Positions 3,392-23,486 of a stretch of 64,000 bases of DNA are shown here, piece by piece. The position numbers and the translations under genes were made by a program. The notes beneath the pieces were generated by a model. It saw only the letters and a program-made list of their open reading frames with translations. It did no database searches and was not told where the DNA came from. The DNA is from Glandiceps talaboti (lineage: Eukaryota > Hemichordata > Enteropneusta > Spengelidae), in NCBI RefSeq assembly GCF_964340395.1, contig NC_135551.1:23655003-23719002 (forward strand). The letters are read 5' to 3'. The first letter of the stretch is position 1. The number at the start of each line of letters is the position of its first letter.

Positions 3392-5194
3392 ATGATCGTT
3401 TTTTACGTTACGCCGTTCACAGTTACCCTGGTCTCGATTTTTTTCATTCCGAGATCTGAGGCCGAATCGGATGTCTTTTCCAGTCAACCTGAAGACAAGG
3501 TATTGACATATCAGCACAATTATCAACACGTTGATTCATTTTTGTTAAACTGTAACGTGAATTCTCTCCACGAGAACCAGACAGTATCGTGGATAAACAA
3601 CGATGAATACATTAGTGACGGTTATACCATGAGAAGTGATGTTACTTATCTAATAGACACGCGTTATTCCATCGTTGGTATCCATCGTCCCCTCAGCTAT
3701 CCACTACTTTTTACTAGTGTCGGTCCTAACACTGTTGCAATGGATACTGGCCGATATTACTGTGTAGTAAGATGGTCGAATGGTACTGTCATACCGTGTG
3801 GGCGATCACGTATAGCAACGGTAAACATAGAGCAGTATCCGCTCTGCTCAATGACCGATGCAGCAGGTAATAATATAGACACAAGTACTGTACCAACCAT
3901 AGTGACATCAAACGAGCAATTGCAAGTAACGTTAATTTGTCAGGCAGGTCCAACTGATACAACAAATCCGGGAATGAACTGGACTAGAAATACAGCTGAT
4001 CAAACCGAGGTGACTATCGGATCAAATAGCGGACAAAATCATGACGGGTTGTATTACATAGAATATGACTGGGTTCCTCAGACGGCGGAATTACCGGAGG
4101 TGTATTTCACATGCACCGTTCAATATGACGAATCGAGTTCTGGTACCTGTACGTTGGGACCGTTCACTGAGAACTTTATACCTATGGTAACGTTGACACC
4201 TAAGTCTGAGACACTTGTTCAAAATGATGACGTAGTGACGTTTAATTGTACCGCACTTGCACACCCGCAAGTAATCAATATTTCGTGGTATTATGATGGA
4301 AATGAAATTCAACAGGATAACGATGTATTTACGATTCAAGATTCATCGATACTTCTTTTGAACTTTAACCCCGAGGAAAATGGACTGCATGAGATCGGTT
4401 GTGAAGTGACGAATGACGTTGGTAAAGGTAACGCTAGCTCCTGTCTGACTGTAGATATACCTATACCGTCATCAACACCCTCTCCACAATCGATTAATCC
4501 AACGACGATGAAGGTTACGACGATGATGACGACGACGACGACGACGACGACGACGAAAACAGCAACGGTGAGGCCTGCGACCACGACGTCGTCGGCATCA
4601 ACGGGTGGCCGTCACAGTACAGAAGGTACAGCGATAGTCACGAATGCAACATCAACAGCACTGCCACAAACTTTACAATTGACTACCACAACAACAAAAG
4701 TGACAACTAATCCGACTGCATCAACAGGTGGTCCTTTGGAGGAATTGGCGACAGTTACAGACACAACAGAAAACTACGATGACGGCAACCTATCGAGTAC
4801 TGCAACTTTACGTAGTATGAACGAAACGTCATCCTCGTTGCCACTAACAACACTTTTGACAACCACAAATGAATCTACGAGTACACCGACTTTACAGACG
4901 TCATCATCACAACAATCAATTGCAAGTCAGAAGACATCAACTCCATATATAATGACAAGTACGCAAGTATCCAGCAACCAAACAACAAAAATGGCGGAAA
5001 TTACAGACAAACCCAAAAGTGGTCGTAAAAAGTACAAGCCAGTATTAGGAAAACAACCCAATTATCTAAGTTATGTTGTTGTAGGTGGTATGTTCAGTGT
5101 TGGCTCATTAGTATTTATGATTATAGTTGTAGCAATAGTCATTTATCGAGTACAGCGTCGACAGGCATCGCTACCTATCAACGTACAAATCTAG
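3392..5194 (+). CDS. Single-exon Ig-superfamily receptor A, three Ig domains, very short tail
   Basis: A 600-residue type I membrane protein. I chose ATG 3392 because the frame upstream has no ATG and residues 1-24 from there form a signal peptide ending in SEA. Ig1 runs from about 30 to 140 with a YYCVVRWSNGT core; Ig2 has cysteines in LICQAG and YFTCTVQY; Ig3 has FNCTALAHP and GCEVTNDV. A Thr/Ser-rich mucin-like stalk follows at about 365-545, including a nine-Thr run encoded by (ACG)n near 4530-4556. A membrane helix lies at about 555-583, and the tail is only about 15 residues, with no tyrosine motif. The helix has no charged residue that would suggest pairing with an ITAM adaptor. It is the first of four tandem paralogues. 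Ligand and function are unknown; a decoy-like or adhesive role is inference. Confidence 0.85.
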   Translation: MIVFYVTPFTVTLVSIFFIPRSEAESDVFSSQPEDKVLTYQHNYQHVDSFLLNCNVNSLHENQTVSWINNDEYISDGYTMRSDVTYLIDTRYSIVGIHRPLSYPLLFTSVGPNTVAMDTGRYYCVVRWSNGTVIPCGRSRIATVNIEQYPLCSMTDAAGNNIDTSTVPTIVTSNEQLQVTLICQAGPTDTTNPGMNWTRNTADQTEVTIGSNSGQNHDGLYYIEYDWVPQTAELPEVYFTCTVQYDESSSGTCTLGPFTENFIPMVTLTPKSETLVQNDDVVTFNCTALAHPQVINISWYYDGNEIQQDNDVFTIQDSSILLLNFNPEENGLHEIGCEVTNDVGKGNASSCLTVDIPIPSSTPSPQSINPTTMKVTTMMTTTTTTTTTKTATVRPATTTSSASTGGRHSTEGTAIVTNATSTALPQTLQLTTTTTKVTTNPTASTGGPLEELATVTDTTENYDDGNLSSTATLRSMNETSSSLPLTTLLTTTNESTSTPTLQTSSSQQSIASQKTSTPYIMTSTQVSSNQTTKMAEITDKPKSGRKKYKPVLGKQPNYLSYVVVGGMFSVGSLVFMIIVVAIVIYRVQRRQASLPINVQI

Positions 5195-5734
5195 CTGAAC
5201 ACGGTATGTATCTAGTGTGACTATCTGGCAAGGACGATCTAGAACAATGCTACATATATAATACCTCGGTATAGTCAGCATTCCTTCTGACCATGTATGG
5301 TTAGAAATCCGCTACAGGTATTTCTGTCGTTGAGATGGATACGTCGTAGTGAAATTTACGACTGATGTAAACACTATGATGACAACTAGTGAAACAAATA
5401 ACAAGTCACATTCATGATACGGAAAATATGTTATGACTTTATATAAGGATATGAAATACATATGATGTACAAAGAAGATCTTCGTATTAGAAGCTTGGTT
5501 CTAACAAATCAACAGGTGTTATGTGGAGCACTTTAAGTCTGCACGGCAGCAACTGGGACATTTTGTTTTTCATCAAGCAACCGAAGACATATTCGCTAAA
5601 GTGGCTTAATTACTCATAAAACGAAAATAATTGTAACTGTTAATTTGCGTTAAAAGTGTAACAGTAGGTGAAAGGTTAATCTTGAGTGAAAGCTTGGTGT
5701 TCAATTTATCTCCATGTTAGTTTGATTTGACTCG
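5195..5734. other. Intergenic downstream of receptor A
   Basis: I found no tail-like relic of the family here (no YAEL-type end), unlike downstream of receptor D, and no gene. Confidence 0.5.
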
Positions 5735-5885
5735 ACACACACACACACACACACACACACACACACACACACATATATATATATATATATATATATATAT
5801 ATATATATATATATATATATATATATATATATATATATATATATATATATATATATATATATATATATATGTATGTATATATATA
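5735..5885. repeat. (AC)n followed by (AT)n microsatellite
   Basis: About 19 AC units to 5772, then about 49 AT units, ending in a short GTAT variant. It lies just upstream of the large palindrome. Confidence 0.95.
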
Positions 5886-21652: not shown

Positions 21653-23305
21653 ATGACTGGTTTCCCGTGGAAGATACTCTTACCTGTGATCTCTGTCTTC
21701 TTAATTTATCATACTTCAAAAGCAATGGTTGAGTCAGCAGTATTTTTACACCAACCAGAAGATAAGGCGCTGACATTTGGACACGGTAATACTTACCCCC
21801 AATCATTTGTTTTGGAGTGTACCGTGAAGTCACTTCAGCAGCACCAAGGTGTGTCATGGGTTAAGAATGATGAATACATCAGTGAAAACTATGCTATGCT
21901 CACCGACAGCAATGGTCATCTCATCGACAGTCGCTACAATATATTGGGTCATGATACTCTCCTGCGTTACACCTTATTTGTGGCGAGTGTAGAACGTGAG
22001 ACTGCTGCCATGGATAGTGGTCGATATCAGTGTGTAGTGAGATGGTCAAATGGTACTGTCATACCTGATGGAAGGTCACGCATAGCTACAGTGACGATTA
22101 TACAGTATCCGCTCTGTTCACTGATCGACAGCACAGGTCATAATATTGACACGGCGAAGACACCGATTTTAGTGCTTGCAAATGAAATGTTAACGCTATC
22201 ATGCCAATCTGATCCCTCGGCAAATGGTGATCACAGTATGCTGTTGGTTAAAAACACAGAGGATGAAATGTCAACTATTGGACAGAACACGAATGGATCA
22301 TACTACATTGAATACGAGTGGGTTCCACCAGTCGCAGACATAACAGATCTCACATACGCGTGTACAGTTCAACTTGACAACTTAGAATCAACAGAAAGCA
22401 CCTGCGTATTGGGACCATTCAATAGTGTGTACTCCCCATTAGTAGCGATAGTCCCAACTACCGTCGAAGTCTTTAATGCAAGCGACTCAATATCAATCGA
22501 TTGTACACATCATTCAAATCCACCAGGAACTACAATATCTTGGTTACAAGATGGAAGAATAATACACGCAGATGACAATCTCCTTGACACCAGGACTCAG
22601 GATTCGTTTCTCATTGTTTCAAATTTTGATGGATGGCAAAATGGAGTCTATGAGATACGTTGCGAGGTTACAAATGACGTTGGCACAGGTAGAGGAATTG
22701 CTATATTAAATGTCAGTTTACCACTAATAACGTCAATAACACCGTCAGTGATGAGTTCGACAACAATAACAACCACATCAGGAATTAATTATACTAATAG
22801 CGACAACACCCCTTTACCAGGAAAACAGCAGGGCGACATCATCATTATTGCAGGCGGTGCAGCCGGTGCAGGACTGTTACTAGTTATCATAATTGTCATT
22901 GTCGCCATATGTGTCCTTAAACGCCGACAGAAAGAACGACACGCACAACCCTATATTATTCATCAACGAGAAGAAAATGATCTCAACCAGGTCACAACAC
23001 ATAATGACGAAGTCGACATTGACACTCGTCCGACAACAGCATTTGCAACCGTCAACCTAGCTTGTCAAACTGAATCAGAGTCTGCAGTTAGCAAAGCTTC
23101 AGTTGCAGTGCAGTTGGAAGTAAAGAATAACACAGAGAAAAGTAGGGATAACATGGACAATGAAGGAAAAGTCGACGATTCCAAAAAGATGTATGTAAAA
23201 CCAAAGAAGAAGACAAAGCCCGTGACTTTGTCTCGACGAACGTCAGTTAAGGAACGGATTCAATCGTTTGAAGGACGGCTTCACCAGAGGCCAAGTAACG
23301 TTTGA
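21653..23305 (+). CDS. Single-exon Ig receptor D, three Ig domains, truncated tail
   Basis: A 550-residue type I membrane protein from ATG 21653 (MTGFPWKILLPVISVFLIYH, a signal peptide); the in-frame sequence upstream has no ATG start. Ig1 carries YQCVVRWSNGT. Ig2 has LSCQSDP and YACTVQL, but the core Trp seen as MNW or MYW in A, B and C is replaced (SMLLVKN). Ig3 has IDCTHHSNPPG and RCEVTNDV. The stalk is short. The membrane helix is IIIIAGGAAGAGLLLVIIIV. The tail keeps FATVNLACQ and KMYVKP but then diverges into SRRTSVKERIQSF and stops at TGA 23303. The ITIM end of the family is absent from the protein and lies as a relic downstream. D is either a signalling-altered member or the start of a pseudogene. 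Confidence 0.83.
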   Translation: MTGFPWKILLPVISVFLIYHTSKAMVESAVFLHQPEDKALTFGHGNTYPQSFVLECTVKSLQQHQGVSWVKNDEYISENYAMLTDSNGHLIDSRYNILGHDTLLRYTLFVASVERETAAMDSGRYQCVVRWSNGTVIPDGRSRIATVTIIQYPLCSLIDSTGHNIDTAKTPILVLANEMLTLSCQSDPSANGDHSMLLVKNTEDEMSTIGQNTNGSYYIEYEWVPPVADITDLTYACTVQLDNLESTESTCVLGPFNSVYSPLVAIVPTTVEVFNASDSISIDCTHHSNPPGTTISWLQDGRIIHADDNLLDTRTQDSFLIVSNFDGWQNGVYEIRCEVTNDVGTGRGIAILNVSLPLITSITPSVMSSTTITTTSGINYTNSDNTPLPGKQQGDIIIIAGGAAGAGLLLVIIIVIVAICVLKRRQKERHAQPYIIHQREENDLNQVTTHNDEVDIDTRPTTAFATVNLACQTESESAVSKASVAVQLEVKNNTEKSRDNMDNEGKVDDSKKMYVKPKKKTKPVTLSRRTSVKERIQSFEGRLHQRPSNV

Positions 23306-23486
23306 ATAGAAAACACGTGAACAGAGAGATCAGCGAAGATCAAATGCGATAAAAACTTTGAAGGGTTGAAATATTCTGAAATGCGTCTGTCATACGTAGA
23401 CACGTGCACGTAACCACAATGGACTACTGACAAAGACGAGGAAAGCCGAAGTGACTTCATGTATGTATGCAGAACTAAAACTGTAA
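23306..23486 (+). pseudogene. Relic of the ITIM-bearing tail of receptor D
   Basis: In the frame of D, after TGA 23303 and a second TGA near 23318, the sequence reads FEGLKYSEMRLS (23357-23392), matching EGLTYAELDMS of B. In another frame at 23463-23486 it reads MYAELKL then TAA, matching the family's last residues VYAELKM and VYAELRL. So the ancestral tail was about 60 residues longer and was lost by stops plus a frameshift. Confidence 0.75.

Follow-up and report, generated by a model that had tools for sequence, protein, structure and literature searches.

A clustered family of one-exon immunoglobulin-type receptors that combine similar ectodomains with inhibitory-type or activating-type tails

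Receptor genes in the window

The sequence analyzed here (the window) is a stretch of 64,000 nucleotides located at positions 23655003-23719002 of genome contig C4. It contains four genes, A to D, for type I membrane receptors with immunoglobulin (Ig)-like domains; B and C have long cytoplasmic tails with immunoreceptor tyrosine-based inhibitory motifs (ITIMs). Relatives of these genes elsewhere in the genome carry an immunoreceptor tyrosine-based activation motif (ITAM) in their own tails. The animal bearing these receptors is likely an invertebrate.

The initial annotation described A to D as adjacent paralogues on the same strand. Four single-exon Ig-type membrane receptors are indeed found on the plus strand (Table 1), but gene C is split and does not form one frame. 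The longest ATG-initiated frames of the window encode 601, 600, 550, and 467 amino acids, versus a maximum of 185 in 20 first-order Markov windows. Matches to Pfam Ig models exceed the cut-offs in genes A, B, and D, and an N-terminal hydrophobic stretch and a single membrane helix are present in each of the three. A third Ig domain is present in A, C, and D and missing from B. The membrane helices of A, B, C, and D contain no charged residue. The reading of the coding region as intronless is borne out: among 61 family pieces from the whole genome, 44 hold the signal peptide, the Ig part, the helix, and the tail in a single closed frame.

Table 1. Coordinates of the receptor genes and associated features in the window
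Feature	Position	Strand	Description
Gene A	3392..5194	+	One frame, 600 aa; signal peptide, Ig1-Ig3, long Thr/Ser stalk, membrane helix 5087-5143, tail of ~12-16 residues, no tyrosine motif
9-mer CCCGGATGA	8028..8036	+	Precedes B; further copies at 10979 (before C) and 21520 (before D)
Gene B	8133..9938	+	One frame, 601 aa; signal peptide, Ig1, Ig2, no Ig3, stalk, membrane helix 9285-9341, long inhibitory-type tail
B, TMYDEV	9699..9716	+	True immunoreceptor tyrosine-based switch motif (ITSM), TxYxxV
B, LTYAEL	9834..9851	+	Strict ITIM
B, TVYAEL	9912..9929	+	26 residues past the ITIM tyrosine
Gene C, first half	11092..11583	+	Signal peptide and Ig1; final codons inside the inserted element
Insertion in C	11576..16877		Transposon-like, 5302 bp; 10-bp target duplication, 166-bp terminal inverted repeats, DEAD-helicase piece on the minus strand
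Gene C, second half	16888..18338	+	Ig2, Ig3, stalk, membrane helix 17670-17726, inhibitory-type tail
C, SAYATI	17823..17840	+	Strict ITIM
C, LTYADL	18234..18251	+	Strict ITIM
C, TVYAEL	18312..18329	+	26 residues past the ITIM tyrosine
Gene D	21653..23305	+	One frame, 550 aa; signal peptide, Ig1-Ig3, membrane helix 22862-22918, truncated tail with YVKP only
D, Ig1 tract	21971..22090	+	Conversion-like; differs from B and C at very few silent sites
D, tail relics	23306..23486	+	EGLKYSEM in frame past two stops; MYAELKL in another frame, ending at 23486

The predicted structure of the ectodomain has a predicted local distance difference test score (pLDDT) of 65 and a predicted template modeling score (pTM) of 0.43; the respective values for Ig1 alone are 67 and 0.58. 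Because this model is only of middling confidence, the ectodomain is described here simply as Ig-like in fold. The Ig1 model would fit Kirrel-type adhesion domains, PD-1, SIRP, and antibody V domains equally well. The ectodomain profile has 143 matches in PDB at E <= 0.1; many Ig proteins are seen among the matches listed (60 of 143). A five-sequence profile finds a single match in the protein collection, a generic beetle Ig protein (38 bits). No close relatives of B or of the Ig part of D are found among the UniRef animal proteins in a search limited to relatives with short exact words in common, from which the species' own records may be missing. A viral or phage source was considered and rejected, with no match among viral contigs or phages. 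The second half of Ig1 is its best-conserved part among A to D; between A and D, the ratio of nonsynonymous to synonymous changes (dN/dS), where measurable, is 0.17 there and 0.29 in Ig3.

Gene C is interrupted between Ig1 and Ig2. The inserted element is flanked by the target duplication AGCACAAACC at 11566 and again at 16878, and its inverted terminal repeats are 98.8% identical. It contains a DEAD-helicase match (5e-9) that, judged by eye, resembles RecQ, as well as an internal inverted repeat (11839-12042 versus 12234-12437, 94%). The second half of the gene is open from 16857, with its first ATG at 16935. When the flanks are joined computationally, they form a 644-residue frame with zero stops, and the insertion therefore looks recent.

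The tails of the four genes differ. With the strict ITIM defined as [SIVL]xYxx[ILV], there is one such motif in the cytoplasmic tail of B and two in that of C. The tyrosines of LTYA(E/D)L and TVYAEL are exactly 26 residues apart in both genes, as initially noted. TVYAEL itself was rejected as a strict ITIM, having T at Y-2, and is only ITIM/ITSM-like. The motifs of the C tail follow the order SAYATI, a YDEV core, LTYADL, and TVYAEL; both tails also contain YAKP. Among 20,000 shuffled tails, three [SIVLT]xYxx[ILV] motifs arise by chance in 0.15% for B and in 0.05% for C. The flanks of the four tyrosines common to B and C are identical at 22 of 28 positions versus 57 of 163 in the remaining tail, a difference equalled by 2 of 194 circular shifts. 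When searched against PDB, the tail motifs match a single entry, a tau chain, apparently by chance. Gene A is almost tail-less, its frame ending just past the helix, and no convincing relic of a long tail is found downstream of it. D has lost its signalling end: the frame stops at 23305, and the former tail is disrupted both by stops and by a change of frame. EGLKYSEM and MYAELKL are the remains of its first and last motifs, respectively. These observations agree with the initial description of both genes.

B, C, and D also share traces of local homogenization. In the second half of Ig1, silent divergence (dS) among these three genes is 0.17 to 0.37, versus 0.55 to 2.9 or saturation elsewhere. 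B and D have 26 successive same-residue codons without a silent change (0 of 10,000 shuffles); the corresponding runs are 20 codons in B and C (P = 0.0019) and 15 codons in C and D (P = 0.0105). The same test reveals nothing in the three pairs that include A (P = 0.79 to 0.87). This silent-site pattern would fit gene conversion, with codon selection as the alternative. The 9-mer CCCGGATGA is located 104 to 132 bp before the start of B, C, and D. One further copy lies within the coding part of C, for a total of 4 in the window versus 0.11 expected.

Genome-wide family and its tail classes

The D protein was searched against the genome (590 Mb, 47 contigs). The counts of such searches are lower bounds for large families, and the search reveals many relatives, with at least 83 match rows. 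All but two of the rows counted lie on C4 (81); the others are single rows on C8 and C13. Because some rows are pieces of one gene, the number of genes is somewhat lower. There is no internal stop in 80 of the 83 rows, and the open frames are mostly 400 to 950 residues long. One match (C4:3975855-3976610) sits in an open frame of 2178 residues, far longer than those of other members. Clusters are found on C4 near 4.0, 5.1-5.5, 10.9, 13.5-13.7, 14.6-14.8, 23.66, 24.6-24.8, and 25.06 Mb. Ig models match in all seven relatives that were scanned. No sushi domain is matched in the five window pieces (E <= 0.1) or in these seven relatives (E <= 0.001).

The tail census includes 61 frame pieces from 60 loci, with L060 duplicating the L017 region. 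These comprise 23 ITIM-type tails, 9 ITAM tails, 18 other tails (including A and D), and 11 pieces without a membrane helix. The ITIM members, including B and C, have an LTYA(E/D)L-type motif. In 21 tails it is followed by a second, C-terminal tyrosine motif at a spacing of 25 to 32 residues, which is exactly 26 in 8 of them. A charged residue (D, E, K, or R) is found in the 19-residue core of the helix in none of the 50 membrane members.

The ITAM consensus is Yxx[LI]-x6-8-Yxx[LI]. The nine ITAM members (L003, L007, L013, L026, L027, L031, L037, L048, and L057) are all located outside the window. Their tails end in YQ(S/T)L-x7-YxxL, with the two tyrosines 11 residues apart in all nine and the motif no more than 10 residues from the C terminus. 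Strict ITAMs thus occur in 9 of 48 tails, versus a mean of 0.19 and a maximum of 3 in 5000 sets of shuffled tails. The L057 tail contains two consecutive ITAMs, YQSL-x7-YTSL and YQSL-x7-YMTL.

Among the 11 pieces without a helix, three short ones (L034, L039, and L041; 291 to 319 residues) from the 13.5-13.7 Mb cluster end in a hydrophobic C terminus resembling a glycosylphosphatidylinositol attachment signal and are possibly anchored or soluble decoys. L051 and L054, which lie about 121 kb apart, are 98 to 100% identical in the first 450 residues and 100% identical over 400 bp upstream; L051 then ends without a membrane helix.

Similar ectodomains on different tails

An ectodomain tree was built from 57 rows, with the joined form of C in place of its two halves; short pieces and those without a signal peptide were omitted, with four exceptions. 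On this tree, the ITAM label requires 8 changes, at least 7 of which are forced by well-supported branches, and its scatter equals that of shuffled labels (214 of 500 are as low). ITAM and ITIM members appear as sisters at 100/100 support in L003-L004 (L004 is gene B), L048-L049, and L013-L006, and the ITAM member L057 groups with the ITIM members L042 and L046 at 100/99.

In these pairs, the similarity is confined largely to the outer part of the protein. Ectodomain versus helix-plus-tail identity is 89% versus 28% for L048/L049, 78% versus 24% for L013/L006, 75% versus 27% for L003/L004, and 71% versus 28% for L057/L042. The reverse is seen in L048 and L031, whose ectodomains are 37% identical and whose helix and tail are 86% identical, making L048 a two-way mosaic. 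In 50-residue steps, L048 and L049 are 76 to 94% identical up to residue 400 and 28 to 34% identical afterwards; the 338 shared codons up to residue 400 include 25 silent differences. For 5 of the 9 ITAM members, the nearest ectodomain is that of an ITIM member.

Breakpoints were located at the DNA level in six pairs. The likeness of L048 and L049 stops 12 bp before the helix; in L006/L013, L003/L004, L057/L042, and L031/L033 it stops earlier, and in L052/L055, a pair of an ITIM and an "other" tail, it continues past the helix. The 400 bp upstream are alike in L048/L049 (94%), in L006/L013 (91%), and partly in L031/L033. No upstream likeness beyond 30 bp is found in L003/L004, L057/L042, or L007/L002. 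L006 and L013 are about 4 kb apart, as are L042 and L057, with no listed match between the members of either pair; one further family match is located between L048 and L049, which are no more than 13 kb apart. L003, the ITAM gene that is the closest relative of B, is located 1.4 Mb from it. Because there are several separate pairs, assembly artefacts are unlikely overall, although single pairs could still be artefacts.

The paired-receptor interpretation

Paired receptors are related membrane proteins that have similar extracellular domains and include opposite members; the inhibitory partners have an ITIM in the tail, and the activating partners have a short tail and an Arg or Lys residue in the helix (PMC3533184). 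The initial annotation saw this form in the window, where it is not borne out: there is no activating end and no charged helix. The window alone does not establish pairing, because D has a decayed inhibitory-type tail, A has no motif, and neither helix is charged. A and D were tried as activating partners and rejected on the same features. The claim holds better elsewhere in the genome, where similar ectodomains are found on C-terminal ITAMs in cis. The four pairs described above combine similar ectodomains with opposite members, as judged from their motifs; ITIM-bearing members account for 23 of the 61 pieces, and clustering is evident from the match rows on C4. The activating design of a short tail and a helical Arg or Lys that couples to an ITAM adaptor is not found; nine members have the ITAM in their own tails. 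For lack of a charged helix, the family is not filed here as vertebrate-type paired receptors. It appears to work like them by another route. Judged from sequence, this is probably an independently built paired-receptor repertoire in which the cis-ITAM replaces adaptor coupling.

The following scheme is proposed. The window cluster would form one group within a large family of single-exon type I Ig receptors that has expanded in tandem and lies mostly on one chromosome-sized contig. The V-like Ig1 and Ig2 (mostly also Ig3), carried on a Thr/Ser-rich stalk, would bind a putative ligand, and the tail would set the sign of the signal. In inhibitory members (B, as well as C prior to the insertion), the ITIM-type tyrosines, 25 to 32 residues apart, might be phosphorylated by a Src-type kinase, and the phosphorylated pair would recruit an SHP-type tandem-SH2 phosphatase or SHIP. 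In activating members elsewhere, the C-terminal ITAM of the same chain (YxxL-x7-YxxL) would recruit a Syk-type tandem-SH2 kinase. Duplication together with conversion or recombination may hold the ectodomains alike while the tails diverge. A and D, whose signalling ends are missing or broken, might be decoys or decaying genes. The motifs of PD-1, at Y223 and Y248, are 25 residues apart. The last two motifs of SIRP-alpha are 26 residues apart. In SHP-2, a distance of about 50 Å separates the two SH2 sites (PMC7078208), and Ala immediately after the tyrosine (pY+1), as in the B and C motifs, promotes SHP1 docking in vertebrate ITIMs (PMC8631942).

On a more specific and tentative reading, rated slightly short of an even chance, this probably invertebrate animal has several dozen one-exon paired receptors, with ectodomains copied between ITIM and cis-ITAM genes. 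In some pairs, the upstream region would have been copied too, with the exchange ending at or before the helix. Recognition and signal sign would then be inherited separately, making up a modular system on one chromosome that resembles the natural killer (NK) receptors. The gene structure, motifs, spacings, tail classes, and shared ectodomains with unrelated tails are all observed directly. The phosphorylation of the tails, their SH2 partners, their inhibitory or activating effect, and an immune or self-recognition role are inferred from these.

Several observations weigh against this interpretation. Twenty match regions lie outside the tail census, and 18 of the 61 pieces within it have tails of neither class. 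The split between classes is not clean, as an ITIM-pattern hexamer is also present in five ITAM members. L003 and L007 contain VGYANV; in L031, L037, and L048 the hexamer is SHYQSL and forms the first half of the ITAM. The two-way mosaic is clear for L048 alone. Compared with the ITAM gene L007, L013 and L003 are about equally similar in ectodomain and tail (70/70% and 50/52%, respectively), and the L057 tail is just 27% like that of L031. For four ITAM members the nearest ectodomain is not an ITIM one (L026 and L027 are nearest to each other, L031 to L037, and L037 to L033), and the breakpoints differ between pairs. ITIM-like tails are also found on adhesion proteins without an immune role, such as PZR/MPZL1. 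Because the two-way mosaic is clear in only one gene and the breakpoints vary, confidence in the interpretation is slightly lowered.

The same data admit other functions. The family might discriminate self from non-self tissue, the role proposed for Botryllus FcoR and Hydractinia Alr, with its ITIM and ITAM members being read jointly. A large clustered Ig family with both kinds of tails on one contig would suit this role, and the nearest published invertebrate systems are allorecognition loci (PMC12065747, PMC11067881). Allorecognition is nevertheless an unlikely function here, given that the second half of Ig1 is conserved among A to D rather than variable and that the source animal may not be colonial. 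Still less probable is a function in adhesion or development. The ITIM-type tails would then act through an SHP2-type phosphatase whose effect on signalling is positive or neutral, as for PZR, and the ITAM-like tails would be used in trafficking or by other SH2 adaptors. The predicted tie of Ig1 with Kirrel-type domains and the YAKP (YxxP) sequence in tails of the B, C, and D type, which suggests other SH2 adaptors, speak for such a role; fast expansion, broken members, and ectodomains common to opposite tail classes would, partly on general grounds, be unusual for adhesion genes.

The state of the window group itself is a separate question. With A tail-less, C split by the insertion, and D truncated, with only stops and relics following its frame, the group might be degenerating, leaving B as the only gene that may be a working receptor. 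This is a serious minority view, somewhat better placed than allorecognition; however, the frames of A and D are fully open, their dN/dS is low where measurable, both may be decoys, and the remaining family consists largely of open frames. It is quite improbable that C is still expressed, either with the element spliced out as an intron or with its first half serving as a secreted single-Ig decoy. Both halves do remain open and the first keeps its signal peptide, but the frame of the first half stops inside the element at 11583.

Other features of the window

Pieces of a multi-exon gene similar to those for adhesion G-protein-coupled receptors are found on the minus strand at 27408-46112. GPS and 7tm_2 matches are above cut-offs; matches to LRRNT, two Ly6/uPAR-like domains, HRM, and GAIN are below them, and the combination looks unusual. 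Two similar short frames on the minus strand, beginning with FAYTRTGAIFFEHF and FAYIRTGAIFFEHF (59060-59329 and 61875-62165, about 2.8 kb apart), likely represent a repeat. No tRNA genes or Rfam families are found in the window.

Comparison with known systems

Invertebrate receptors with tyrosine motifs are already known from Botryllus (FcoR), oyster (IgIT), and amphioxus (BbLcLRR) and are not new in themselves. A one-exon ITIM/ITAM Ig family, with a full ITAM and with ITAM and ITIM relatives sharing a common ectodomain, was not found described in the accessible parts of the literature searched, which did not extend to most subscription journals.

FcoR of Botryllus schlosseri is reported from 53 loci and comprises type I Ig receptors of 520 to 610 residues with long tails that carry an ITIM or a hemITAM; at some loci, alleles carry either one or the other (PMC12065747). 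It resembles the family described here as a large invertebrate set of type I Ig receptors with ITIM and activating-type tails. The differences are that FcoR has a sushi domain between V-type and C2-type Ig domains, a hemITAM, and alternative splicing, whereas the family described here has no sushi match in the scanned proteins, one coding exon, and a two-tyrosine ITAM. In Hydractinia, the Ig genes of Alr are likewise clustered in one genomic region, with 41 loci reported (PMC11999971) and with clusters and pseudogenes (PMC11067881); ITAM and ITIM motifs are mentioned for them (PMC12065747).

The oyster IgIT/CgIgIT2 is also an invertebrate Ig receptor with a tyrosine motif; no paired ITIM/ITAM family is described for it in the accessible text. 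IgIT is called inhibitory in two cited titles, whereas the review text terms the CgIgIT2 motif an ITAM (PMC11999971). In amphioxus BbLcLRR, ITIM-type tyrosines recruit SHIP1 and, to a lesser extent, SHP1/2 and inhibit human T cells (PMC8211107). Oyster IgIT and BbLcLRR put tyrosine-based inhibition on record for such animals. The BbLcLRR ectodomain consists of leucine-rich repeats rather than Ig domains, and the accessible text does not describe a paired family.

Innate immune control in vertebrates characteristically relies on paired activating and inhibitory receptors, and whether their logic arose once or repeatedly is at issue. The family described here would follow the same logic in another construction, with one-exon genes, the ITAM within the receptor, and ectodomains 71 to 89% alike on unrelated tails. 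With its clear breakpoints, the swap could be tested in a comparison of individuals, and with only one exon per gene, whole receptors are simple to express. The vertebrate KIR/LILR, SIRP, and PILR groups are similar to it in clustering, in their similar ectodomains with opposite ends, and in ITIM-type tails; they also include motif-less members, such as SIRP-gamma (PMC3533184). In contrast to these vertebrate receptors, each receptor here is encoded in a single exon and has a cis-ITAM in place of a charged helix and adaptor, and the homology seen between the two is that of the Ig fold only.

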